Assembly (NCBI GenBank): GCA_003164275.1
Contig: PLSY01000011.1
Location: 1 to 10,231 of the forward strand
Source: Acidimicrobiaceae bacterium
GTDB taxonomy: Bacteria > Actinomycetota > Acidimicrobiia > Acidimicrobiales > RAAP-2
Direction: 5' to 3'
DNA: 10,231 nucleotides
Positions 1-10,231 of the stretch are shown here, one piece after another (the first letter of the stretch is position 1; each line of letters opens with the position of its first letter). Position numbers and translations under genes: made by a program. A model generated the notes under the pieces. It was not told the DNA's origin, made no database searches, and was given only the letters and a program-made list of their open reading frames with translations.

Positions 1-585
1 TTGCAGCGACCGTTGGGATTCGCCAAGCATGCCCTTCATGATGATGTCAGCGTCACCGAGAGAACCATCGAGAGACTGCATTCGCGGCCGGGGCACTGCA
101 CGGACCAACACAAGTTCAGCGCCAAGCTCGTCTCGGAACGGATCACCGAGATGAAAGGGGATTTGGCGAGACTCCGCGATCAGCAGAGTGCCATCAATGT
201 CGAGACTTACCGTGGGCGCACAGGTTCTTGGTACACGCAGTTGCGCAAGACCTGGGAGCGGGCCATCGAAGAGGTCGTGGTCGGCGAGATCCTCACAAGG
301 GACAGCTTCGAAGTTCATCCCAAGAGAGTCCGCGCGCTCGTGTTGTTTACGGCCCAAGACAATCGTGACCTCCAGCACGGCTACGGGCGCGCGACGGAAC
401 TTAGTGAGGTCCACGACGAAAGTCCCATCATCAACTCGGCGCCTCCATCTCCTGACGATCTCGCCACTGACCTTGCAGCATTCGAGGAGTGGTACAAGCG
501 CGTGTCGAGGCGCAATGGACTGGGCGAGCAGAAGATTTACGAAATGGCGGCCTCAGCGGCGCCACCGTCTGGGACGCCAGCCTGA
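1..585 (+). CDS. AAA family (AAA_13/RloC-like, SMC-type) ATPase, C-terminal part, cut by window edge
   Basis: About 194 residues are visible. The frame is open at base 1, so the TTG there is probably internal and the gene begins upstream. No Walker A is present, as expected for a C-terminal piece. Residues ~78-150 carry the pattern I associate with the tail of AAA_13/RloC-like SMC-type ATPases: an 'LRKTWERAIEEVV' segment, then 'RVRAL', then the 'SEVHDESP' segment (near 136-143, SxxxHD type), and a final acidic/aromatic helix around 'DLAAFEEWYKRV'. Members are coiled-coil ATPases, often of anti-phage or anticodon-nuclease type, so the ATPase core and any effector domain should lie to the left of the window. 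It ends 14 bp before the stop of the convergent 362-aa gene, so it is not in the same operon. The family call rests on remembered motifs. A short independent gene starting at base 1 is possible but less likely. Confidence 0.6.
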   Translation: MQRPLGFAKHALHDDVSVTERTIERLHSRPGHCTDQHKFSAKLVSERITEMKGDLARLRDQQSAINVETYRGRTGSWYTQLRKTWERAIEEVVVGEILTRDSFEVHPKRVRALVLFTAQDNRDLQHGYGRATELSEVHDESPIINSAPPSPDDLATDLAAFEEWYKRVSRRNGLGEQKIYEMAASAAPPSGTPA

Positions 586-608
586 AAATATCGCGCAAGT
601 CAGTTGGC
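576..608. terminator. Imperfect hairpin spanning two convergent stop codons (possible bidirectional terminator)
   Basis: The arms GCCAGCCTGA (576-585) and TCAGTTGGC (600-608) pair over 9 positions, with one bulged C and one G-T wobble, around a 14-nt loop. The structure covers the TGA of the + strand ATPase (583-585) and the stop of the - strand 362-aa gene (600-602). No U-tract follows on either strand, so it is a weak terminator candidate only. Confidence 0.25.
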
Positions 609-1688
609 CTGGAGCTCGTCTCTGATTGCATCGCACGCATCGGCAACGGCAAGTTGAATCTGCCGCCATGCGGCCGACCAGTCAGCAACTGGGTATGCCA
701 AGTGCAGGCGTCCGTATGCATCGATGGTCTGCGCTCTTGCTTCAACGTGCTGGGCACCAGCACGAAGACTCCGAGCTGAGTCGAGGACGGCGACCGCTGC
801 TCGGATGCGTGGATGCGCTTCGGCGGGAAGTTCAGCCTCCAAGAAGGGCGCCAAGCGCTGCAATGGGTGCCCGTCGATTCCGGGCATTCCCGGTACCTGG
901 AGTCCTTTGAGTAGTTCGGCGAGCGCACTCAGGCAGGAATCTGCCTCCTCCGGACTCGCGGCATCGAACGCGAGCCGGCCTGATCGTTCTACGCCCGGTG
1001 CGACCACCAGCGACTTGTCGAACCGCAGTTGCCAGACGGTATCGAGATAGTCAATGGCCGCAGGGAGAGTGAACGGTGAGTGGAACAACCTCGTGGACTC
1101 TGGTTCGACAGGAGACAGATAGCTGCGAAGACGCTCAAGGTAGTCCTCGACAGTGCGTACACCGGCAAACCGTCGGATCTCCGGACTGAGTTCAACCGTT
1201 TCCCAGAACTCGGTGACGGGAGAGAGCACGCAATGCCAGGTAGCCGGTTCCTTCGCCAGCAATGGAACTACAAGTGACTCGAGCGCGGTCGCCGGCAGTC
1301 GGTCAGCCATCACCTGGTCACGATTGAAAGTGGGGCGCGTCTCCGAAAACGGATCGAGCCGCGCTCCGGCGCGTATGGTTCCCAGCGCATCAACCAGGTT
1401 GAGGAAGTGACTCACGAGCTGTTCGGCCGGCTCGACGTGGGCCAATCCTGCGACAGTGAGTCCAACTCGATCTTGGGGGGTGGGGGCTGATTGCCTCGTT
1501 GGCCACAGATAGCCGTAGCCGACGGAGAACTCCCGAGGGAATCCCGCCAAGATTTCACTTGCGCTAAGACTCTGCCGGTCGAGCGTCTCCTCAAGCCAAG
1601 CCCAGGTTGGCCATTGGCCGTACTTCAGGTAGACGGGGGCAACCGTGTCCAGTACCATCTGCTGCTCTCGGGTCGGCATTCCCAACAT
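600..1688 (-). CDS. Conserved-looking hypothetical protein, 362 aa, unknown function
   Basis: I do not recognise a named domain. The N-terminus (residues ~4-50, 'PTREQQMVLDTVAPVYLKYG' followed by 'QWPTWAWLEETLD') is predicted helical and reads like a small wHTH-type module seen in uncharacterised actinobacterial proteins. The C-terminus (~305-362) has a regular helical pattern, 'RAGAQH...A..A' then 'DWSAAWRQIQLAV' and 'IRDEL'. No signal peptide, membrane segment, cysteine cluster or nuclease motif is visible. The ATG at 1688 is preferred over the one at 1679. It lies 6 nt after a TAGCCT hexamer on the same strand, suggesting a leaderless transcript, and neither ATG has a good Shine-Dalgarno. 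The gene lies on the helicase strand 155 bp downstream of the helicase stop, so it may be an independent unit or an accessory cistron of the system. The role is unknown; a DNA-binding accessory protein is only one possibility. Confidence 0.75.
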   Translation of the reverse strand: MLGMPTREQQMVLDTVAPVYLKYGQWPTWAWLEETLDRQSLSASEILAGFPREFSVGYGYLWPTRQSAPTPQDRVGLTVAGLAHVEPAEQLVSHFLNLVDALGTIRAGARLDPFSETRPTFNRDQVMADRLPATALESLVVPLLAKEPATWHCVLSPVTEFWETVELSPEIRRFAGVRTVEDYLERLRSYLSPVEPESTRLFHSPFTLPAAIDYLDTVWQLRFDKSLVVAPGVERSGRLAFDAASPEEADSCLSALAELLKGLQVPGMPGIDGHPLQRLAPFLEAELPAEAHPRIRAAVAVLDSARSLRAGAQHVEARAQTIDAYGRLHLAYPVADWSAAWRQIQLAVADACDAIRDELQAN

Positions 1689-1694
1689 CAGGCG

Positions 1695-1700
1695 AGGCTA
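1695..1700 (-). promoter_or_regulatory. -10-like hexamer TAGCCT, putative leaderless promoter of the 362-aa gene
   Basis: On the - strand TAGCCT fits TAnnnT and ends 6 nt before the ATG at 1688, so transcription would start at or next to the start codon. I see no convincing -35 box upstream. The case rests on the same spacing recurring at two other genes in this window. Confidence 0.35.
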
Positions 1701-1728
1701 TCCGGGAACTGCGCCGCCACCTCAGCGC

Positions 1729-1791
1729 CGCGGACAAGGCCAGGGCGAGCACAGTGTCGGGAGGCACTATTGAATGGCGGCCTTGTGCGCG
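1729..1791. repeat. 13-nt inverted repeat with one mismatch in the helicase/362-aa gene gap
   Basis: Arms at 1729-1741 and 1779-1791 pair as CGCG, one G/G mismatch, then ACAAGGCC with GGCCTTGT, enclosing 37 nt. Inside, - strand AGTG...CACT (around 1754-1768) can form a smaller nested stem. It lies in the 155-bp gap after the helicase stop and upstream of the 362-aa gene. It could be a terminator-like or processing structure, an operator, or a relic of an insertion. No U-run follows it on the - strand. Confidence 0.5.
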
Positions 1792-1843
1792 ATGAACACT
1801 GGCCGTACAAGTCCTGCCAACACGTTCTCAGCTTTCGATTCCG

Positions 1844-4800
1844 TCAGCCCTTACGCTTCGGTGGCCTTAGGTCGATACGGAGGTCCTCAACCTCGGAAGG
1901 ATCCATATCCCTCGCGGCAAGAACGGCCATGAGGTCTTCCTGGCGCGGCTGACCGAAGGCGAGCCGGTAGATCGCACGTTCACGCCGAAGTCGCTCTTCG
2001 CGTCCCTTGTCCTTGCTGAGCGGCATATAGGGAACCCAGCACTCAACCTTGGCCTCTCCGGGGTAGACCCACCCTGGCCATAGGTCGTTCATATCATCTG
2101 GGCGAAGCTGACCGGCGGCCTCGAAGGCAGCGGCCCATGGGTCGGCTTCGGATGAGCGGAGTGCCTCACCTCGGTGCTTCCTGGCCACATTCTTGCGCAC
2201 GGCGTGCCCTTTGTACCGATGGACGCGACCCTCGCGTTGCTCAAGATCCACTACGTTCGCGGGCTGGTTCCAGTGGATGAGCGAGTGGCACCACCAATGG
2301 AAGTCGATGCCCTCCTGCCCTACCGAGGTGCTGGCCAGCACGAACGGCCAGAAGGGCGAGTTGAAGGCCGCCTGAATCTCACTTGCACGCTCGGCAGCTG
2401 TGTCGTCCACTGACAACTTTCCTTTGGCGCTTCCATAGCGAACAGCGAATCTGGTATTCAGTCGAAAGGACTCTCCTCCAACTGGGTCGAGCGCTTCCAC
2501 CCGTCCACGACCGAACGCAACCGTGTCCGCGATGCTCTTCGCCATAGCCACGAGGTCGCGGTCGTCCCTAGGACTGGCATTGCCAACCAGGTGATGAAGG
2601 TACTCGTCAAGAACGGCCTGAAGGTTGTGCGTCAGACAGTAGGTCAACACCCGTTGCCAATACACCTCATCCTTCGATGCCACTGGTCCATCGACAAGGC
2701 GCATGACCTCTTCCCGATTGAACAGGCTTCTGAATCCCTCTCCAATAACTATCGATCCTTCCAGGATCGCGTCCTCGCTGAACTGCACGTGCTCCCTCGT
2801 GACGCGTCGCAATGCCCGCCAAGCGCAGTTCGCGGGAGACGCTAGGCCGACCATGGCGGCCCAGCGAGCTAGGTCTGTAGGTCGCGCTCCTAACGAAGGG
2901 ACGTCACGCATCGCGCTGTCGGCCATTTCGAGATGCCGGCGCAGCCCACCTGCTGCATCCCTGTCGGCTCCAGAGAAATGCTGGCGGAGGTCCGCGTATT
3001 GACCGACGTGTCCATCCCATCCAAGCGTGGCAAACCAGTACCAACTGTCGCTGCTTCCTCTCGAACTCCCCAAGTCGGCCGAGGGAAGCTCCCGATCGAC
3101 GTACTCCTTTGCACGCGCAATCACTTCGTCCGCTGAGAACATCTCGTCTGGACCTTGCCGAGCGATCGCTAGTGGATCGCACAGAACGGCTAGCCCAGGC
3201 TGTGGAGCGCCGAGGATGAGCGTCGACATCCGATCGGGTCGGTTGTCCGAAGAAAGGGCATACGTGAGTCGTGGTGAAACTCGTCCGGCTGACGGGCCCA
3301 CGATGTCGCGGATCGCCTCATGGCTGAGCAATGCGGCGATTGCCGAGGGGGCGGCCGCCCAACTCGAGAAGATCAGCCTCTTGGTGACCTTCTCGCCTGC
3401 GATGTGGCTCTCGGTCCCTTGGTAGTAGGGCATGGAGGGTGGCATCCAGAGCATTCGGTGCAATCCGGATCGGATGATCTCGGATTGGAGAACTCGAAGG
3501 CGCGGGTTCCCTGGCTCGATCGTTCGACGCTCTCGAATATCGACTCGTCGGATATGCGGGGTCTTGCGCACTGCTGCCTTCACTTCTTCATCTTCCATGT
3601 GCCCTCGAAGTCGCTCAGAAAACTGGTACCCGTCCATGAAGTTCAAGAAATAGGGGACTGACTTCCAGTAGTCGACTGACATCTGCGCCTCCACATGGGT
3701 GGCAAGGCGTTTGGTCAGGACATAGCTCACCAAGTCATCCTCCGTCGGCGATCCGACGCCGCCATCGCGATCCGACAGGATGTTTGCGCTGCCACTTGCC
3801 GGTCGCTCAGACCGGCACATCACAGACCGCAGCATTTCCTGTGCGTTGTCCCGATCCTCACGCGATTCACCACCCGAGACGAGTTGATCACGGAATCCGC
3901 TGAGCGCGACACCGAGTCCTTGTGCCACATCCTCACCACGGGGAAAGGCAAGGAATTCCACCGTCTTCAGAAGGTCCTTGTAGTGATCGTCGCCCGTGAG
4001 TTCACGCTCCTCAGGAAGTGTGACGAACTTGTACGGCGTGGCAGAGAGCAGTAGCACTTTTGCCCCTTCGGCGTTGAAGAGATCATTGGCCAGTTGGCTT
4101 ACCTCGGCTTCAGCACCATCGTCCGGGGAATCGAGCAGATGCCGGAAGCGCTGGAACTCGTCGAGGATGATCAAATCCGGCTCGAGTGCATCAACACTTG
4201 CGCGGGCAAGCAGATGCCGCATCTCTCCGATGACGACGTTGATCCCTGTTGAGGTGTCAGCCGATAGTTTCCCCGGGCCTACGGAATGGTCGACGAGGTG
4301 CCGGAGCTTGGCGAGCGTCTCACTCTCGTGGAGCAAATCCCGGTACCTCCTGCCGATATGAGGATCTGGAAGATTCTCCATCCATTCGAAGCGGGCCAGC
4401 TCCCGTTTCCATCGGTCAAGCCCCACGTCTTGGCGCAAGAGCCGGCGCAACGCATTGCGGCGCGCCTTTCCACGGAACAACTGGGTGGTGAAATGCACGA
4501 GGAGGGCACGCTCCTCGACCTTGCCACGCCTGTTGCCTTTTTGGAATGACGTTCCTGGGGTGAACGCGACGAGGTTCACCGTCTTGCGGCCTTCTGGATC
4601 CTTCCGGTTCAACTCGGCGACATCGTGAGCCAAGAGCGAGATCCGGGTGGAGAGCGAGGTCGCCCCGGCACCCCTTACGCCCAACTTGGCGAGGTTCTGT
4701 GCGGCAATACTCAAGTTCGAGCAGATGTAGAGGATGTCGATACGCTCCACTCCACTGCTCGGAGCTTCGAGCCGCTCGACCAGTCCGCTGATGACGCCAG

Positions 4801-4948
4801 CAGCCACCAGCGTCTTTCCCATGCCGACCTCATCAGCAACGAGGAACCTCGACGTTGGTTCGTCCCCGAAGAACCGGTCGAGCACATGGTCGACCGTGTC
4901 GGCCTGGAAATCCATGAGCGATGTGAATCGCCTACCTCCAGTGCTCAC
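1844..4948 (-). CDS. Large SNF2-like superfamily 2 helicase/translocase, 1034 aa
   Basis: An ATP-dependent nucleic-acid translocase by motif. Numbered from the GTG at 4948: a Q-motif-like FQ at 14-15; motif I 'ADEVGMGKT' at 38-46 (K45, T46); motif II 'ILDEFQRF' around 261-268 (D263, E264); motif III 'LSATPYKF' at 301-308; motif IV 'KRLIFSSWA' at ~523-531; motif V 'STSVGQEGIDFH' near 873-884; motif VI 'QREGRVHR' at ~904-911 with its arginines intact. The length exceeds a minimal SF2 core mainly because roughly 340 residues separate motifs IV and V. I choose the GTG at 4948 rather than the in-frame ATG at 5008. It has GGAGAGG just upstream and its GTGA overlaps the PLD stop by 4 nt, the classic translational-coupling arrangement; the ATG would intrude 64 nt into the PLD gene. 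The family is common beside PLD proteins in defence loci. The motor assignment is strong; substrate and polarity cannot be read from sequence. Confidence 0.93.
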   Translation of the reverse strand: MSTGGRRFTSLMDFQADTVDHVLDRFFGDEPTSRFLVADEVGMGKTLVAAGVISGLVERLEAPSSGVERIDILYICSNLSIAAQNLAKLGVRGAGATSLSTRISLLAHDVAELNRKDPEGRKTVNLVAFTPGTSFQKGNRRGKVEERALLVHFTTQLFRGKARRNALRRLLRQDVGLDRWKRELARFEWMENLPDPHIGRRYRDLLHESETLAKLRHLVDHSVGPGKLSADTSTGINVVIGEMRHLLARASVDALEPDLIILDEFQRFRHLLDSPDDGAEAEVSQLANDLFNAEGAKVLLLSATPYKFVTLPEERELTGDDHYKDLLKTVEFLAFPRGEDVAQGLGVALSGFRDQLVSGGESREDRDNAQEMLRSVMCRSERPASGSANILSDRDGGVGSPTEDDLVSYVLTKRLATHVEAQMSVDYWKSVPYFLNFMDGYQFSERLRGHMEDEEVKAAVRKTPHIRRVDIRERRTIEPGNPRLRVLQSEIIRSGLHRMLWMPPSMPYYQGTESHIAGEKVTKRLIFSSWAAAPSAIAALLSHEAIRDIVGPSAGRVSPRLTYALSSDNRPDRMSTLILGAPQPGLAVLCDPLAIARQGPDEMFSADEVIARAKEYVDRELPSADLGSSRGSSDSWYWFATLGWDGHVGQYADLRQHFSGADRDAAGGLRRHLEMADSAMRDVPSLGARPTDLARWAAMVGLASPANCAWRALRRVTREHVQFSEDAILEGSIVIGEGFRSLFNREEVMRLVDGPVASKDEVYWQRVLTYCLTHNLQAVLDEYLHHLVGNASPRDDRDLVAMAKSIADTVAFGRGRVEALDPVGGESFRLNTRFAVRYGSAKGKLSVDDTAAERASEIQAAFNSPFWPFVLASTSVGQEGIDFHWWCHSLIHWNQPANVVDLEQREGRVHRYKGHAVRKNVARKHRGEALRSSEADPWAAAFEAAGQLRPDDMNDLWPGWVYPGEAKVECWVPYMPLSKDKGREERLRRERAIYRLAFGQPRQEDLMAVLAARDMDPSEVEDLRIDLRPPKRKG

Positions 4949-6774
4949 GAGCCTCTCCGTGCTGTGTGATGACGTGCTGCCAATAGTGCCGACCACAACT
5001 CGCCCCAACCCTCGGGAAGCACGCCTTGTCCTTCTTCGGTGGCCGCGAGTCGGGCCACCAGACCATCGATGTCATCAATCGCCTGAGGGTGATCAGCAAG
5101 GGCAGCAACCAGGGATTCGAGAACTCCGCTAGCGCCGAAACCAAATTCACGGCCGGTGGGATTCCGCGCAGAAGTCAGGACTGCGAACTGCGTCAAGTCG
5201 CCGCCGCTGATCTGCAGGAGTAACTGCAGGAATCGAAGAAAGTCCTCTTCGGAACCGACTTGGCGGGCGATCAGCCGATCGAGCCGATCCTCCGGACCCC
5301 CAATTAGGGACGCCAGGACCACGCACGACACTCGGACGGCACTACTCCCAACTCCTGCAGTCAGTTCAAGCGTCGCAAAGGGAGTGATGTCTTCAGTGGA
5401 AATGCTCGGCCAGATCACGTCGATCAAAGTGCCCGCTTCCACATCCCGGTTCGGCACTCCATCGGCCAGCAGTCGGACCCGCATGACCGCCCCATCGGGA
5501 AAGCTTGCCTGGAGCTCTTTCAATCCCTCAAAACGCACATTCCAGCGACCGTCGTCCGCTTCTGATGCCATCGCCGTGAACGCCTGGCTGGCAGCATCAA
5601 CCAGAGCCCACTCGAGGCGTTGCTCCAGCGACGGCAACTCCGGATTCGCTTCGGCGGTGCCCTCGTATTGTCGAAGAATATGGCTCAGACCTCCCTCGGC
5701 GTCGGCCAACGCAGCTTGAACACCGAACTTCGTGGTTGGTCCAATGATCTCGACGACGAACTCGGTATTGCCACCCCATGCACTCGAAGTCGCATTTGCG
5801 GAGCCGACGAACACGTGCGTCCTACGCCCTCGTTCGAGCACGATCACTTTGGCATGCAGACCACGAAGGGACCACCGCACCGCACTGTCTCTGTCGTCCT
5901 CGTCAGGAAGAGCTGCTCCGTCATCAAGCTCGCGAAACTGGAAGCCCCGCGCCTGCTGAAGTTCGTCCAATGCTTCGGCCCCAAGAGCTGCGATGGACTC
6001 TGGTCGAGACACGATGACGCACCCTTCGCCATCGGGACACACAACCTTCAGCCCATCGACGTTCAGGAAGGGAGAGACAACCAATCGGCGTCCAGTGCCG
6101 GCGAGTAGGTCCTTCGACACCCGTTCGCCCTCCAGCCAATGAAAGGCAAGCCAATCACGGTCGGAGATGCCAGCCGGTGGTTCCCACTCGGCGAATCGAA
6201 CTGCTTCAGCCAAGTCCAGTACGCGCCTCTTCCGATCGGGCAGGACTCCGTTTGGAACGCGCCCGGGGAGCGAACCGACAAACGCCGACAGTGCCCTGTT
6301 TTGACGTCGGGGAGCGCCCCGTTGCACTCCTTCCAGACTCACGATTGCGTCCCACGCGCGATCACCCGTGAGGTTTCGCGAGCCACAGAGCAAACGGAAC
6401 TTTCGACCACCTTCGGAATCAACGTATGACACGAGCCAGACCTTGGGATGGAATAGCCGACCCGACCGCGGTCGCTCCACCTGGTGGACCACCGCCTCCA
6501 AGAGACCGAGGAGAGGATTGGGGCGAGCGGGAACGTGCAGCATCCCGGCCTGACAGAACACGTCAATTCGATCCGCGCACGCACGTACGGCTTCCATGAC
6601 GCCGAGGGGATCCGACGTATCAGTCCACTCAGCGCCAAAGACGGCCAGCGGGATCCGTAGGAGCGAATCCAACTGCATGGTGAATGTTGTACCGACCGCC
6701 TGCTCGAGGCGGTGGTCGGGCGTAGGAGGCGTGAGCAGATCTACGAGGAGCGCCCGCTCGTCAGTCCTCAGCAT
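4945..6774 (-). CDS. Phospholipase D-family (two-HKD) nuclease-like protein, 609 aa
   Basis: Two PLD-type half-sites are visible, numbered from the ATG at 6774. The first is 'LFHPKVWLV' (H109, K111) followed by 'CGSRNLT' (G131, S132, N134). The second is 'GLHAKVIVLE' (H307, K309) followed by 'GSANATSSAW' (G324, S325, N327). Two HxK sites in one chain would form one pseudo-symmetric active site; bacterial homologues of this size are mostly DNA phosphodiesterases rather than lipases. The canonical Asp of HxK(x4)D is Ser in the first site and Glu in the second. No signal peptide or membrane helix is seen, so a cytoplasmic role is expected. The ~270-residue C-terminal part is unassigned. The ATG at 6774 is chosen because GGAG lies 6 nt upstream and it overlaps the DUF6361 end by only 14 nt; the longer open frame to 7080 merely shadows DUF6361. 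It overlaps the helicase start by 4 nt, which argues for stoichiometric co-expression. Confidence 0.9.
   Translation of the reverse strand: MLRTDERALLVDLLTPPTPDHRLEQAVGTTFTMQLDSLLRIPLAVFGAEWTDTSDPLGVMEAVRACADRIDVFCQAGMLHVPARPNPLLGLLEAVVHQVERPRSGRLFHPKVWLVSYVDSEGGRKFRLLCGSRNLTGDRAWDAIVSLEGVQRGAPRRQNRALSAFVGSLPGRVPNGVLPDRKRRVLDLAEAVRFAEWEPPAGISDRDWLAFHWLEGERVSKDLLAGTGRRLVVSPFLNVDGLKVVCPDGEGCVIVSRPESIAALGAEALDELQQARGFQFRELDDGAALPDEDDRDSAVRWSLRGLHAKVIVLERGRRTHVFVGSANATSSAWGGNTEFVVEIIGPTTKFGVQAALADAEGGLSHILRQYEGTAEANPELPSLEQRLEWALVDAASQAFTAMASEADDGRWNVRFEGLKELQASFPDGAVMRVRLLADGVPNRDVEAGTLIDVIWPSISTEDITPFATLELTAGVGSSAVRVSCVVLASLIGGPEDRLDRLIARQVGSEEDFLRFLQLLLQISGGDLTQFAVLTSARNPTGREFGFGASGVLESLVAALADHPQAIDDIDGLVARLAATEEGQGVLPEGWGELWSALLAARHHTARRGS
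4952..4958 (-). promoter_or_regulatory. Shine-Dalgarno GGAGAGG deciding the GTG start of the helicase
   Basis: On the - strand GGAGAGG ends 3 nt before the GTG at 4948 (GGAG core 6 nt away). It lies inside the last codons of the PLD gene, so helicase translation probably depends on ribosomes finishing PLD. Confidence 0.6.
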
Positions 6775-8029
6775 CAGCCGCTCCGTTGGAATCTTGTCTC
6801 CATGTCGAACGGATCTGCGTACCGTGAAGTCCGTCGGAGAGATCCGCGAGGAACCCCCAAACCCTGTTCCATCGATACCCGAGGGGGACAAGGCCAGACG
6901 ACCCATTCCACGCCCTGAGGCGAGCCGGATTATTGAATCGCGCCTGGCTTCTCTTGTGGTCGAGCTCACGATTGCGCACCAATTCGATCGCCCTCGCCTC
7001 ATTGAATTTGCCATTCGGGATCGATGCGACTTGTTCGCACCAGGCGGATACAAACCGATACGTAGGCCCTGCACTCCCACCTGCGGTACGCACGCTCTTC
7101 CAGAACGGACGCAGATCCGACGACCATGCCTGGATCACTTTGCTATCGCATTCTCGAATCCAGGCATCCATTTCATCGCGGAGAACGTCTGTCCTCTCCG
7201 GGTCACCCAACTCACGGTCGTTCCGTTGTGTGGAGAGAAGGAGGTTGTAGAGGATGGATGCTCCGTGCATGGCCATCGAGAAGGATCGCGCGTGGTCCAC
7301 CAGTTCCTCGGTCGCTGGGTCCGTGTCTTGGGGAAGTGGTTGGTCCCAGAACGCGTCTCTCGAGATTTCCAGTCCCGTGTGGAGCGCACGGACATAGGCG
7401 GTGAGGAGAGTGGGCCCGGTACGGATTTCAGTTGACAGCACTCGCTCAGAGAGCCAATCCGACTCCTCTCGGGTCAGAGTGAAATTGACTTCACCGAATG
7501 CGAAGAACTCGTTTGGAGGTTCGGGCATGTCGCGATGCCAGTACGAGCGGCCCCGGACATTCACCTCTCCCTCGTCTTCCCGTACGTGACCTTCTGCGGC
7601 TGCTGCCTTTCCGTACTGTGCAAGCGTCAGTCCCGATGATAGGAAGATCTCGTATTGGGCGAGGCCGGTCCAATAGATGGCCGATGGGAGCGTCTTGATG
7701 TCCTTGCCCGATTGTCGTCCGATCAGGCCCTCGAGATCTCCTCCGTTTCGCAACGCCCCGATCAGTTTCTTCTCGAAGACCTCACCCCGGGCCACGAGTT
7801 GGGGCCGTCGCGTTGACTCAGCCCGTTGGTAGATCCAGGGGATGAACAAGAAGTACCGGGCACGGGTCTGAATGGTTGACGTACCGGGGAAGAGGCGGTT
7901 GCTAATCGCATCCCTGACCGTGCCGATGCCAAGGTCATCAACTGTGCCCCGATCAGACATGAACTGCATCAGCTCTCGTACTTGGCGCTGTTCCTCCTCG
8001 CTGAAGTCAAGCCACCCGAAGAAACTCAT
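6761..8029 (-). CDS. DUF6361 family protein, 422 aa
   Basis: The N-terminus carries the family signature: 'FFGWLDFSEEE' right after the start, then 'TVDDLGIGTVRDA' (~29-41), then 'LFPGTSTIQTRARYFLF' (~46-62) and 'PWIY'. The rest is mostly soluble helical sequence; the C-terminal part has 'LDHKRSQARFNNPARLRAW' followed by a 'YRWNRVWGFLADL' segment, also typical of the family as I recall it. Biochemistry is unknown; I see no nuclease or nucleotide-binding motif. The ATG at 8029 has GGGGAG upstream with a short 3-nt spacer, and the protein begins exactly where the signature begins, so the start is firm. It is the first of three overlapping genes (DUF6361, PLD, helicase). This gene order suggests a dedicated partner, for example a sensor, clamp or scaffold for the nuclease-helicase pair. 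The family call is strong; the role is inferred from context only. Confidence 0.88.
   Translation of the reverse strand: MSFFGWLDFSEEEQRQVRELMQFMSDRGTVDDLGIGTVRDAISNRLFPGTSTIQTRARYFLFIPWIYQRAESTRRPQLVARGEVFEKKLIGALRNGGDLEGLIGRQSGKDIKTLPSAIYWTGLAQYEIFLSSGLTLAQYGKAAAAEGHVREDEGEVNVRGRSYWHRDMPEPPNEFFAFGEVNFTLTREESDWLSERVLSTEIRTGPTLLTAYVRALHTGLEISRDAFWDQPLPQDTDPATEELVDHARSFSMAMHGASILYNLLLSTQRNDRELGDPERTDVLRDEMDAWIRECDSKVIQAWSSDLRPFWKSVRTAGGSAGPTYRFVSAWCEQVASIPNGKFNEARAIELVRNRELDHKRSQARFNNPARLRAWNGSSGLVPLGYRWNRVWGFLADLSDGLHGTQIRSTWRQDSNGAADAED
6781..6784 (-). promoter_or_regulatory. Shine-Dalgarno GGAG deciding the ATG start of the PLD gene
   Basis: GGAG on the - strand lies 6 nt before the ATG at 6774 and within the DUF6361 coding end. 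It supports the short PLD reading (609 aa) over the open frame extending to 7080. Confidence 0.55.
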
Positions 8030-8032
8030 GCA

Positions 8033-8038
8033 CTCCCC
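8033..8038 (-). promoter_or_regulatory. Shine-Dalgarno GGGGAG of the DUF6361 gene
   Basis: GGGGAG on the - strand lies 3 nt before the ATG at 8029. There is no TAnnnT at the leaderless spacing here, unlike the 282-aa gene upstream. That fits DUF6361 being an internal cistron of a transcript started further upstream. Confidence 0.45.
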
Positions 8039-8080
8039 GACTCACGCAATATCAACTCGGCGGCCACGCTACATCCAGAG

Positions 8081-8105
8081 GAATCACCGGCATCGACCGG
8101 TATTC
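8081..8105 (-). terminator. Hairpin at the 3' end of the 282-aa gene (weak terminator or attenuator)
   Basis: On the - strand GAATACCGG and CCGGTGATTC pair over 9 bp with one bulged base around a 6-nt loop, beginning inside the TGA of the 282-aa gene. No U-tract follows. It may reduce rather than abolish read-through into DUF6361, or stabilise a processed 3' end. Confidence 0.3.
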
Positions 8106-8952
8106 ACACGTGGGCAACCGGCCCAGACTGCTCAATTGAAAACCTGAGTTCAGTCGGCGATGGAACGTGAAGATGCTTCACCAGCGTCGTGATCACAAGC
8201 AAGACGGGCTCGACGATAGCGAGGGGATCGTCCCATTCGGCCCGGTAGGTGCCGCCGACGACCCTCCAACCAAGTTCGACCATCGCGCTCGAGTCGACTT
8301 CCTCTTCGCCAGACAACTGAACGGACAGGTTGCCGACGCTGTCGACCTCGAATTCGATCCTGAAGGAATCCTCTGCACCGGTCCCCTGCATTGTGAGGAT
8401 GCAGTCGTGATCGATAATCATGCGGCCGAGGTCACCCGCCAATTCGGTCGAGAACTCGTCGAAGCGCGCTGAGCTGTGCCAGAGACCGTCGTCGACCAAG
8501 GTCGTCGGTTCGTTGACCAGCTTCAACGCCACCACGGCTGCTCGGTCGGACCTCACTGTCTCGTCAGTGTGCGTCAGGGAGGCAGACAGCCCGATGCACA
8601 GGGCTGCGATCCGCCGCATCCAGCGTTCCACCTCCGTAGCGGCAACCGAACTCGCCTCGAGTGCTGCCTCCAGCTTCTCTTCTGATGTCGCGTCGAACTC
8701 CTGGCGAAGCAGCAGCAGGACAGTGTCAGCCGCATTGCACGAGTCGGTGCAGCTATCCCCCATCATACGAACGGCAGTGAAGAGACCTGGGGCTGGCGTG
8801 TTGCCTTCCATCGGCGCCATCATGAGATCTTGCGCCTCGGCGGCCAGACCGCGCCCGATGAGCCAGTTCTGGGTGGCTCTCGCTGCTCGCTGATTCGCCT
8901 GCCAGCGAATGTCCTCCCTCGATTCTTCGAGGAAGAGAATCTCGTCACTCAT
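8104..8952 (-). CDS. Hypothetical protein, 282 aa, C-terminus faintly TY-Chap/YbjN-like
   Basis: No firm family. Residues ~1-50 are charged and helical; ~85-125 form further helices containing 'EKLEAALEASSVAATEVERW'. The last ~85 residues alternate strand-like segments ('FRIEFEVDSVGNLSVQLSGE') with 'VELGWRVVGG...W' and a helix plus 'VPSPTELRFSI'. That layout recalls actinobacterial TY-Chap/YbjN-type domains, in which an LGW turn precedes a Trp and a helix ending in a P..L motif. This resemblance is weak and from memory. No catalytic motif, signal peptide or membrane helix is seen. The ATG at 8952 lies 6 nt after TAGAGT, has no Shine-Dalgarno and fits a leaderless start. It lies 74 bp upstream of DUF6361 on the same strand, so it is plausibly the first gene of the defence-like operon, perhaps a chaperone or regulator. 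The 3' hairpin leaves independent transcription possible. Confidence 0.75.
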   Translation of the reverse strand: MSDEILFLEESREDIRWQANQRAARATQNWLIGRGLAAEAQDLMMAPMEGNTPAPGLFTAVRMMGDSCTDSCNAADTVLLLLRQEFDATSEEKLEAALEASSVAATEVERWMRRIAALCIGLSASLTHTDETVRSDRAAVVALKLVNEPTTLVDDGLWHSSARFDEFSTELAGDLGRMIIDHDCILTMQGTGAEDSFRIEFEVDSVGNLSVQLSGEEEVDSSAMVELGWRVVGGTYRAEWDDPLAIVEPVLLVITTLVKHLHVPSPTELRFSIEQSGPVAHV

Positions 8953-8958
8953 CCAAGC

Positions 8959-8989
8959 ACTCTAAGGGACTGGTTCCGGCTTGGTTCAA
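8959..8989 (-). promoter_or_regulatory. Putative leaderless promoter of the 282-aa gene and perhaps the whole operon
   Basis: On the - strand a -35-like TTGAAC (8984-8989) and a -10-like TAGAGT (8959-8964) are separated by 19 nt. The -10 ends 6 nt before the ATG at 8952, so the transcript would start at or beside the start codon. The spacer is slightly longer than ideal. Confidence 0.45.
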
Positions 8990-9035
8990 GGCAGCCATTT
9001 GTGGATCAATCCGAAAGCCGGACACACCCTTCGGT

Positions 9036-9041
9036 TACGTT
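9036..9041 (+). promoter_or_regulatory. -10-like hexamer TACGTT, putative leaderless promoter of the NERD gene
   Basis: TACGTT fits TAnnnT and ends 6 nt before the ATG at 9048. Only a weak AGG abuts the start codon. No clear -35 box is visible. It would be divergent from, and share 95 bp with, the promoter of the 282-aa gene. Confidence 0.4.
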
Positions 9042-9047
9042 CCTAGG

Positions 9048-9932
9048 ATGGCAAACAGCAGGGTGCTCAACGTGCGAAAGCCGGATGTCTGCACGATGTG
9101 CCGAACGGCGATTCAGCGTGGCGAAGCGGCGTGGTGGGATGCCGATGCCAAGGTCGTATGGTGCCTCAAGGGCCGAGGCGATGAGCCTTCGAATGCGGGA
9201 GCATTCGACGTGGACGCCGGCACCACCGAGCCGCCTGAGTCTCCCCCGCCAACACTTGGTCCGATCCCAACGTTCCAGCCCGTCGACCGAGGAGATGCCG
9301 GCGGATCGGCCCAGAGAGAGTTCGATCGCAGACACCAATCCGAGATCCGTCGACTCCAGGAGCGATGGGGGCGCCTCTCCGGGGTGGCCAGGTTCTTCCA
9401 TGAGGATGCTAACTCCACGACCGCCTACGCCAAGGGGGCCGCCGGCGAGCGCAGGGCCGCCGGATTCCTCGAGCGCACTGTCGGTGGCTCGGGAATCGTG
9501 CTGCACGATAGGACCGTACCCGGCACCAAGGGCAACATCGACCACATCGTCGTAGCGACGTCAGGGGTCTGGATCGTCGATGCCAAGAACTACAAGGGCA
9601 AGGTCGAGCAACGGGACGTCGGGGGCATCTTCAAGACGGACCTCCGCCTCTATGTGGGCGGAAGAGACCGGACCTCGATTGCCGAAGGTCTGGGCTGGCA
9701 AGTCCTTGCCGTCGCAATGGCCCTCGAAGACCCTGACATCCCGATCCGCCCAGCGCTCTTGTTCGTGGAGAGCGACTGGGGACTCTTCCCCCGGACGTTC
9801 GAGCAGTCTGGCGCCCTGATCGCCACACCGAAGAAGTTGGCTGCCCAAATCACCACGCCCGGTCCACTGGCGGGGTCAATCATCGAGGGTGTCGCCGCCT
9901 TGCTTGCACGGGCGCTTCCAGCGAAGCGATGA
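9048..9932 (+). CDS. NERD (nuclease-related) domain protein with N-terminal Cys knuckle, 294 aa
   Basis: The N-terminus has CxxC (C15, C18) and a further cysteine, C39, in 'VVWC'. This looks like a treble-clef-type zinc knuckle, but no fourth cysteine follows. A Pro/Gly-rich linker (~42-85) and a charged helix (~90-115, 'REFDRRHQSEIRRLQERW') lead to the NERD domain at ~127-240. Its landmarks are 'KGAAGERRAAGFLE' with E134, 'KGNIDHIVV' with D165, and 'IVDAKNYKGKV' with D178 and K180. Together these match the PD-(D/E)xK-like core (E...D...DxK), so the catalytic residues appear intact. NERD proteins are thought to be nucleases or nucleic-acid processing factors and often occur near mobile or defence genes. 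It is divergent from the 282-aa/DUF6361/PLD/helicase block across 95 bp and may be an independent neighbour. The start follows a -10-like hexamer at leaderless spacing. The family call is confident; activity is inferred. Confidence 0.9.
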   Translation: MANSRVLNVRKPDVCTMCRTAIQRGEAAWWDADAKVVWCLKGRGDEPSNAGAFDVDAGTTEPPESPPPTLGPIPTFQPVDRGDAGGSAQREFDRRHQSEIRRLQERWGRLSGVARFFHEDANSTTAYAKGAAGERRAAGFLERTVGGSGIVLHDRTVPGTKGNIDHIVVATSGVWIVDAKNYKGKVEQRDVGGIFKTDLRLYVGGRDRTSIAEGLGWQVLAVAMALEDPDIPIRPALLFVESDWGLFPRTFEQSGALIATPKKLAAQITTPGPLAGSIIEGVAALLARALPAKR

Positions 9933-9951
9933 CTGACCACGGCCAGTCATC
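9928..9951 (+). terminator. Perfect 8-bp hairpin overlapping the NERD stop codon
   Basis: GATGACTG (9928-9935) and CAGTCATC (9944-9951) pair perfectly around an 8-nt loop. The left arm contains the TGA at 9930-9932. TAAGGG rather than a U-run follows, so if it terminates it does so as a non-canonical, U-poor terminator. Confidence 0.4.
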
Positions 9952-10078
9952 TAAGGGACCGAAGATCCGGTCAATTCCAAGCATCCAGTGGAGCAATCTG
10001 GAGCGGAGTTGCCAGGACTCGCCCATTGGTCGGTCAGCACCAACGAGATCTGGATCTACTGCTGACTCCCGAGTGGTC

Positions 10079-10094
10079 CCGAGGGGCTCCTCGG
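10079..10094. repeat. Short perfect hairpin CCGAGG-GGCT-CCTCGG
   Basis: A 6-bp GC-rich stem with a 4-nt loop, 146 nt after the NERD stop. No U-run follows on the + strand, and the - strand has none either. Its function is unclear; it may be a terminator for a gene lying outside. Confidence 0.35.
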
Positions 10095-10102
10095 AGGATC
10101 TC

Positions 10103-10146
10103 GGCCTATATCTGGGCCTATATTTTCGAGTCCGACATTGTCCGAC
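10103..10146. repeat. Two pairs of short direct repeats (GGCCTATAT x2; GTCCGAC x2)
   Basis: GGCCTATAT occurs at 10103-10111 and 10115-10123 (period 12). GTCCGAC occurs at 10130-10136 and 10140-10146 (period 10). The near-helical-turn spacing and the AT-rich patch would suit a protein-binding or promoter region, but no adjoining gene is visible. Confidence 0.4.
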
Positions 10147-10231
10147 CCTGCTACATCGTGCCTGGCAGGCCACTTGCGTGTTCGGAGATCCGTGCCTGAG
10201 TCCCGCGATTCGCTGGTTAGCAGTGAGTCCG

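Follow-up and report, generated by a model that had tools for sequence, protein, structure and literature searches.

Gene content and identity of the operon

We analysed a 10,231-nt stretch of DNA from an Acidimicrobiaceae bacterium (contig PLSY01000011.1, positions 1 to 10,231; hereafter the window), in which three overlapping genes on the minus strand form a predicted Azaca (ZacABC) operon. The first gene, zacA, lies at 6761–8029 (ATG at 8029, stop codon ending at 6761) and encodes a 422-aa DUF6361 protein. The second, zacB, at 4945–6774 (ATG at 6774, stop codon ending at 4945), encodes a 609-aa protein of the phospholipase D (PLD) superfamily, and zacC, at 1844–4948 (GTG at 4948), encodes a 1034-aa SNF2-like helicase. 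The genes zacA and zacB share 14 nt (6761–6774, minus strand), and zacB and zacC share the 4 nt GTGA (4945–4948, minus strand). A GGAG motif precedes the starts of zacA, zacB, and zacC, with spacings of 3, 6, and 6 nt, respectively. Because such a motif is expected by chance within about 8 positions at ∼4% of starts at this base composition (by arithmetic, not by shuffling), its presence at all three starts is unlikely to be accidental. Two alternative in-frame starts of zacC, TTG at 5008 and GTG at 4996, lie upstream; GTG 4948 is favoured, as the profile match of ZacC begins at residue 8 of the protein initiated there and short overlaps are common among related loci. Promoter-like and terminator-like sites occurred no more frequently than in shuffled sequence. 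The original prediction made from this DNA had described the same coordinates, strand, and overlaps and had given each internal start its own Shine-Dalgarno sequence, all of which the sequence bears out.

The three proteins matched the Azaca profiles of PADLOC-DB 2.0.0 over nearly their full length: ZacA with PDLC03828 (380 bits, E = 3.7e-114, profile positions 3–394 of 396), ZacB with PDLC03829 (487 bits, E = 2e-146, positions 1–582 of 586), and ZacC with PDLC03830 (1023 bits, E = 0, positions 10–1017 of 1019). The Azaca gene order A-B-C, adjacent and co-directional, is likewise present in the window. Furthermore, ZacA matched the Pfam family PF19888 (DUF6361) at 178 bits, well above the cut-off of 25, which confirms the DUF6361 identity proposed earlier, and the profile matches of ZacB and ZacC agree with the proposed PLD-type enzyme and SNF2-like helicase. 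Judged from these matches, the trio is almost certainly an Azaca anti-phage operon. Azaca itself reportedly goes back to Millman et al. 2022.

Among the matches listed, the closest ZacA cluster, the protein's own entry aside, was 79% identical, and the closest named ZacA, from an Acidimicrobiia metagenome-assembled genome (MAG), was 56% identical. In a 79-row tree built from zacA and zacB, the rows nearest to the window were contigs L012–L014, labelled actinobacterial. On this comparison of sequences, the window trio is a new, divergent member of a system already catalogued, and the description "candidate new system" falls for that reason. The anti-mobile-element scope claimed with it gained nothing, as no finding pointed to an anti-plasmid rather than an anti-phage role. 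The Zac names are tied to Azaca in print: in its methods, PMC12278908 counts "Azaca (ZacC)" among the helicases of defence systems, and PMC10952713 tabulates Azaca under PLD-like domains. Two papers give its mechanism as unknown, and one published table files it under nucleic-acid degradation, validated or predicted. The name "DUF6361" had no occurrence in the literature searched.

Conserved residues of the Zac proteins

The Pfam PLD domain match of ZacB fell slightly below the cut-off. In the predicted model, the N-terminal 380 residues adopt a PLD fold, to which beta-rich and helical C-terminal regions are added. The best structural match of this model was Tdp1, with PLD3, PLD4, and phospholipases D within about 1–4 Z units, so that a Tdp1-like chemistry is not singled out. 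The protein carries two HxK half-sites, each followed by a downstream Asn motif (S-R-N and G-S-x-N), as is characteristic of the PLD superfamily. Half-site 1, H109-P-K111 ... R127 ... N134 (6373–6450, minus strand), retains H109, K111, R127, and N134 in 84/84 aligned rows. Half-site 2, H307-A-K309 ... G324-S325-A-N327 ... N336-x-E338 (5761–5856, minus strand), is equally fixed at H307, K309, G324, S325, N327, N336, and E338, and D142 is also invariant across the 84 rows, the window included. The Asp of the HxK(x)4D signature is missing from both halves of the window protein: its position is occupied by Ser116 in the first half (Arg in 72 of the 84 rows) and by Glu314 in the second (Glu in 63 rows, Asp in 15). 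The earlier description of a "two-HKD" protein thus holds for the HxK and Asn of both halves and fails at the Asp position. Since Tdp1 likewise lacks the HKD Asp, the kinship of ZacB with the PLD superfamily by fold stands.

For ZacC, Pfam reported DEAD and Helicase_C domains. Motif names, here as in the other Zac proteins, are our presumed assignments. The putative Walker A motif, G42-M-G44-K45-T (4811–4825, minus strand), keeps G42, G44, and K45 in all 78 rows, and the four residues of motif II, D263-E-F-Q266 (4151–4162, minus strand), are present in 78/78, as is SAT (302–304). Motifs V and VI are retained in 76–77 of the 78 rows; within motif VI, Q904-R-E-G-R908-V-H-R911 (2216–2239, minus strand), Q904 and R908 occur in 76 rows and R911 in 77. 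Beyond its own family, the best PADLOC relatives of ZacC were PDC-M27C, DrmD, DpdE, and DrmA.

In ZacA, eleven positions were invariant in 89 rows (G34, F47, P48, Y59, G104, W120, Y261, E355, K359, W374, and R386). A sensor function of DUF6361, as suggested in the original prediction, is possible. At least 2,496 protein clusters matched ZacA at E ≤ 1e-10 among 8,000 candidates scored. Residue counts were made after dropping short rows, namely those below 370 aa for ZacA (3/92), 520 aa for ZacB (8/92), and 900 aa for ZacC (6/84). An apparent long ZacB fusion in locus L027 and a long ZacC fusion in L083 were rejected, as the stored sequences contain long masked stretches; both rows were left out of the tree but not out of the residue counts for ZacB and ZacC. 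In two loci, zacA is split into several open frames (L008:9001-10239 and L015:9953-11220), with uninterrupted zacB and zacC frames; the cause is either decay or a sequencing error. The conserved residues make this widespread but unexplained system accessible to point-mutant tests.

Synteny and distribution

A contig scan with a ten-sequence ZacA alignment returned at least 593 pattern matches, at least 575 of them encoding a relative. From these, the top 80 were taken and combined with 10 of 45 plasmid records and one phage record, both found by tblastn, to give a set of 91 loci. In every one of them, zacB follows zacA on the same strand, at a distance of at most 40 nt in 89; the two remaining loci are L008 and L015, where the zacA frame is broken. 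ZacC comes next in 83 of the 91, and in the other 8 the contig ends inside zacB. The zacA–zacB overlap recurs in 79/91 loci and the zacB–zacC overlap in 71/83, with the start codons of the relatives picked by a distance rule. These recurring overlaps, together with the GGAG motifs, support the co-translated module that had been proposed.

Because the 91 loci were ranked by similarity to an Azaca-type ZacA, we added whole-genome samples. PF19888 was detected in 8/396 genomes from the phylum of a Microbacterium genome (L022) and in 5/398 from the phylum of a Hansschlegelia genome (L029), each count including the centre genome, a known carrier; DUF6361 was thus present in 13 of 794 sampled genomes, and in none of the 14 control genomes. 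ZacB adjoins DUF6361 in 10 of the 13 (8 of 11 without the centre genomes). In the first 396 genomes, the ZacB profile exceeded 400 bits in 5, always beside DUF6361, and two more hits were weak (∼40 bits) and lay in frames longer than 900 aa. The three DUF6361 cases without ZacB comprise a copy that runs off a contig end (L096), a 76-residue stretch within an open frame of 92 aa (L099), and a 261-aa protein of L097 (wider view, L112) that carries an N-terminal part of the domain. The gene for this protein precedes an MzaA-like and a DrmA-like gene, and no match to ZacB or ZacC appeared in 18 kb. This last case counts against a strictly obligate pairing of DUF6361 with ZacB. The three genes concerned lie at L112:8137-8922, 12120-13937, and 13934-16999, an arrangement suggesting that the N-terminal half of DUF6361 may also serve as a module in other settings than Azaca.

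The original prediction had regarded DUF6361 homologues found mostly without their partners as evidence against it and had proposed counting how often the three families co-occur. That count gave ZacB in 91/91 loci and ZacC in 83/83 loci with a complete zacB, and, together with the 10 of 13 sampled genomes, places DUF6361 predominantly beside its partners.

Plasmid copies of ZacA were found by tblastn in 45 of 72,556 records. INPHARED yielded a single match, an unverified faecal scaffold, among 50,697 records. No relative was found in IMG/VR with a single ZacA protein as query, a weak negative, as the search patterns were specific to that protein. Azaca was also observed in two records labelled archaeal, a Halomarina plasmid (L003) and a Methanotrichaceae MAG (L051).

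A recurrent AddAB-like companion pair

In 19 of the 91 loci, belonging to 8 of 53 ZacA clusters (the window's cluster counted), the flanks contain both genes of an AddAB-like pair (L002, L004, L005, L029, L035, L040, L045, L047, L060–L062, L065–L067, L071, L072, L075, L086, and L090). The pair consists of an AddB-like protein with a C-terminal PDDEXK_1 domain and an AddA-like UvrD helicase, which in several cases has a PDDEXK_1 tail. In 14 of these loci, the end of the AddA-like frame falls close to zacA, anywhere from 4 nt within the gene to 183 nt upstream of it; a WYL-domain gene accompanies the pair in 10 of the 19. The loci are labelled Pseudomonadota, Chloroflexota, and Cyanobacteriota; the pair is absent from the window. 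On the zacA and zacB tree, 20 of 63 labelled rows had one or both genes of the pair, a pattern requiring at least 12 changes, 10 of them forced by starred branches; the pair was therefore gained or lost many times. The observed labels are also the more clustered when compared with shuffling, which gave a mean of 17.3; near-copies would have this effect.

A second, diverged AddA (∼28–30% identity) lies elsewhere in all six alphaproteobacterial genomes tested, which makes the Azaca-linked AddA an extra copy there. With another query, Chloroflexi and Lyngbya genomes showed the Azaca-linked AddA alone and Sphingopyxis gave only a weak second match; since these three gave no clear second copy, a separate housekeeping AddA is established for the six alphaproteobacterial genomes alone.

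In the reverse direction, the dedicated AddA was found in 8 of 376 genomes (9 places) from the class of the L029 genome. ZacA adjoins it in 3 of these (G004 and G802 being carriers known beforehand) and ZacC in 1, and the remaining 4 genomes (5 places) contain no Zac gene in the 5.7–25 kb examined. Neighbours of the Zac-free copies include Shango SngA and SngC (SngC directly upstream), BrxC, AbiEii, and a weakly PbeA-like protein, so that members of the AddA family are also found close to Shango, BREX, and AbiE genes (L125–L127). We therefore regard AddA as portable, accompanying several defence systems, and not as an Azaca subunit; AddAB as an obligate Azaca partner was rejected, as 4 of the 8 carriers lack Zac genes in the DNA examined. 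AddAB was not found alongside Azaca or Shango in the literature searched.

Neighbouring genes

Four further genes flank the trio in the window. A frame at 1–585 (plus strand), cut by the window edge, encodes the C-terminal portion of a candidate defence protein that resembles PDC-S06 and is distinct from Azaca (PDLC04891, 98 bits, profile positions 696–856 of 858). It is followed by a gene for a 362-aa protein (600–1688, minus strand) that gave no match over the cut-off in profile searches. Just upstream of zacA, a gene at 8104–8952 (minus strand) encodes a 282-aa protein with 17 protein matches at E ≤ 0.001 and a weak TY-Chap3 hit; the latter, a family of peptide-binding chaperones of the type III secretion system (T3SS) type, was below the cut-off. 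The fourth gene, at 9048–9932 (plus strand), encodes a 294-aa NERD-domain protein (PF08378, 54.5 bits). BLAST found no relative of any of the four in the regions flanking the 91 loci. As the original prediction had noted, neither a methyltransferase family nor DUF1998 is present; none appeared when seven proteins of the window were searched.

Among the related loci, we scanned 84 immediate neighbours, at most one per side, taking one representative per ZacA cluster (60% identity). PADLOC profiles (E ≤ 1e-20) identified DrmD in 2, proteins combining HKD and Snf2 in 2, and UvrD (GajB-like) helicases in 3, with single matches to BrxC, a type I restriction enzyme, Cas3, and DruE. Pfam assigned Mrr to 3 and AIPR to 1, as well as families of ordinary genes such as aldehyde dehydrogenase, HSP70, and UPF0182. 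Some defence genes, along with ordinary ones, therefore adjoin Azaca; the counts are descriptive and not a measure of enrichment, because the 25 commonest families were listed without a background set. No methyltransferase was among the families matched by at least two of the 84 neighbours, rarer ones being possible. By eye, a protein cluster in the flanks of six loci resembles HsdM.

Two other neighbours deserve mention. Relatives of a single-chain protein of L077 (C3a139 type, HKD plus Snf2), another PLD-helicase design beside Azaca, lie within 10 kb of it, downstream in L049 and L077 and upstream in L031, L043, L029, L061, L069 (partial), and L075. ADP-ribosylglycohydrolase genes were also observed beside Azaca (L046:7202-8695 and L072:7213-8316), in a BLAST cluster that spans five loci.

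Proposed mechanism and alternatives

The profile membership, the conserved active-site and ATPase residues, the near-obligate synteny, and the predicted fold class of ZacB point to helicase-driven, modification-independent DNA cleavage as the likeliest mechanism, one that we infer to be somewhat probable. ZacC, as an ATP-driven SNF2-like translocase, would load on foreign DNA and travel along it. The two HxK...N half-sites of ZacB would form one active site and cut the DNA presented by ZacC. ZacA, predicted to be all-helical and encoded on the same transcript, may act as a partner and gatekeeper that either couples ZacB to ZacC or holds ZacB off. Host DNA would most likely be spared because ZacC would need a DNA end or another unusual structure for loading, a basis for discrimination suggested by the lack of a linked modification gene in the window. 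The AddAB-like end-processing pair found elsewhere fits such an end-loading model without proving it, and provides a handle on how phage and host DNA might be told apart without a linked modification gene.

A Hachiman-like, damage-sensing abortive infection is a possible, if less probable, alternative, in which ZacC would sense broken or unusual DNA and free ZacB, and host and phage DNA would be degraded together as the cell dies. Hachiman, which follows the same helicase-plus-nuclease logic, acts by damage-sensing abortive infection according to a passage of PMC12278908. The window links no self-protection gene to the trio, and ZacA could serve as a brake, all three frames overlapping. The Zac proteins gave no HamA, HamB, or DUF1837 match up to E = 1, which speaks against kinship and not against a similar logic, and the outside relatives of ZacC lie in other families.

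A further reading, which we consider unlikely, takes ZacB as a Tdp1-like end-cleaner that would remove proteins or adducts from DNA ends, such as phage ends capped by a terminal protein or in another way, and would thereby give access to ZacC or to a host nuclease of the AddAB/RecBCD type. The top rank of Tdp1 among the structural matches, the missing HKD Asp in half-site 1, and the recurrence of a dedicated AddAB-like pair favour this reading; the narrow lead of Tdp1 over PLD3, PLD4, and phospholipases D, the occurrence of both AddAB-like genes in only 19 of the 91 loci, and their absence from the window argue against it.

A housekeeping DNA-repair operon is very improbable: PLD, helicase, and AddAB-like enzymes also act in repair, but the patchy occurrence of DUF6361 in the sampled and control genomes, the plasmid copies, and the defence genes among the neighbours argue for defence, as originally proposed. 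A reduced DISARM system can be dismissed, because the shared PLD protein and SNF2-like helicase and the weak DrmC and DrmD matches (NCBIfam, 23 bits against a cut-off of 133 and 49.6 against 610, respectively) are outweighed by the whole-length matches to ZacABC and the lack of DUF1998 and methyltransferase matches among seven window proteins. DISARM, kinship with Hachiman, and housekeeping repair were all set aside on this evidence.

Returning to DNA cleavage driven by ZacC, we can extend it speculatively, and with considerable doubt, to a modular defence with Azaca at its core, one that recognises DNA ends and does not depend on modification. In this view, a Tdp1-like ZacB would be steered by ZacC and gated by ZacA, possibly with a new helical fold, and the portable AddAB-like pair, recurring beside Azaca and also found beside Shango and BREX, would be an unrecognised accessory shared by several helicase-based defences. 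The original prediction is partly supported overall, in the module, the enzyme types, the defence role, and the separation from DISARM, and not in novelty or in a canonical HKD enzyme. The value of the present analysis lies in the named residues, the corrected description of the active site, and the AddAB-like companion.

Comparison with known systems

DISARM resembles the window trio in its PLD protein and SNF2-like helicase, and the C-terminal helicase part of ZacC is weakly like DrmD and DrmA. The window differs in that it gave no match to DrmB, the DUF1998 protein, or to a methyltransferase among its seven proteins, and in that DrmC and DrmD stay far under their cut-offs; the claim of a defence operon other than DISARM is therefore sustained. 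In PDC-M27, PDC-M27C is the best non-Azaca match of ZacC (66.8 bits) and PDC-M27B matches ZacB weakly (20.8 bits), but only short stretches match, and the comparison covers M27B and M27C alone. Hachiman (HamAB) likewise combines a helicase and a nuclease with a partner formerly known as a domain of unknown function (DUF). The PLD-type restriction nucleases SauUSI and BfiI, along with Tdp1 and PLD3, share the PLD fold and HxK half-sites with the N-terminal 380 residues of ZacB. SauUSI is a single chain with PLD and helicase parts, whereas ZacB has extra C-terminal regions and is encoded beside separate ZacC and ZacA proteins. The closest resemblance is to Azaca, with which the window trio shares three near-full-length ZacABC matches and the gene order, while differing in its divergent sequence and its own set of neighbours.

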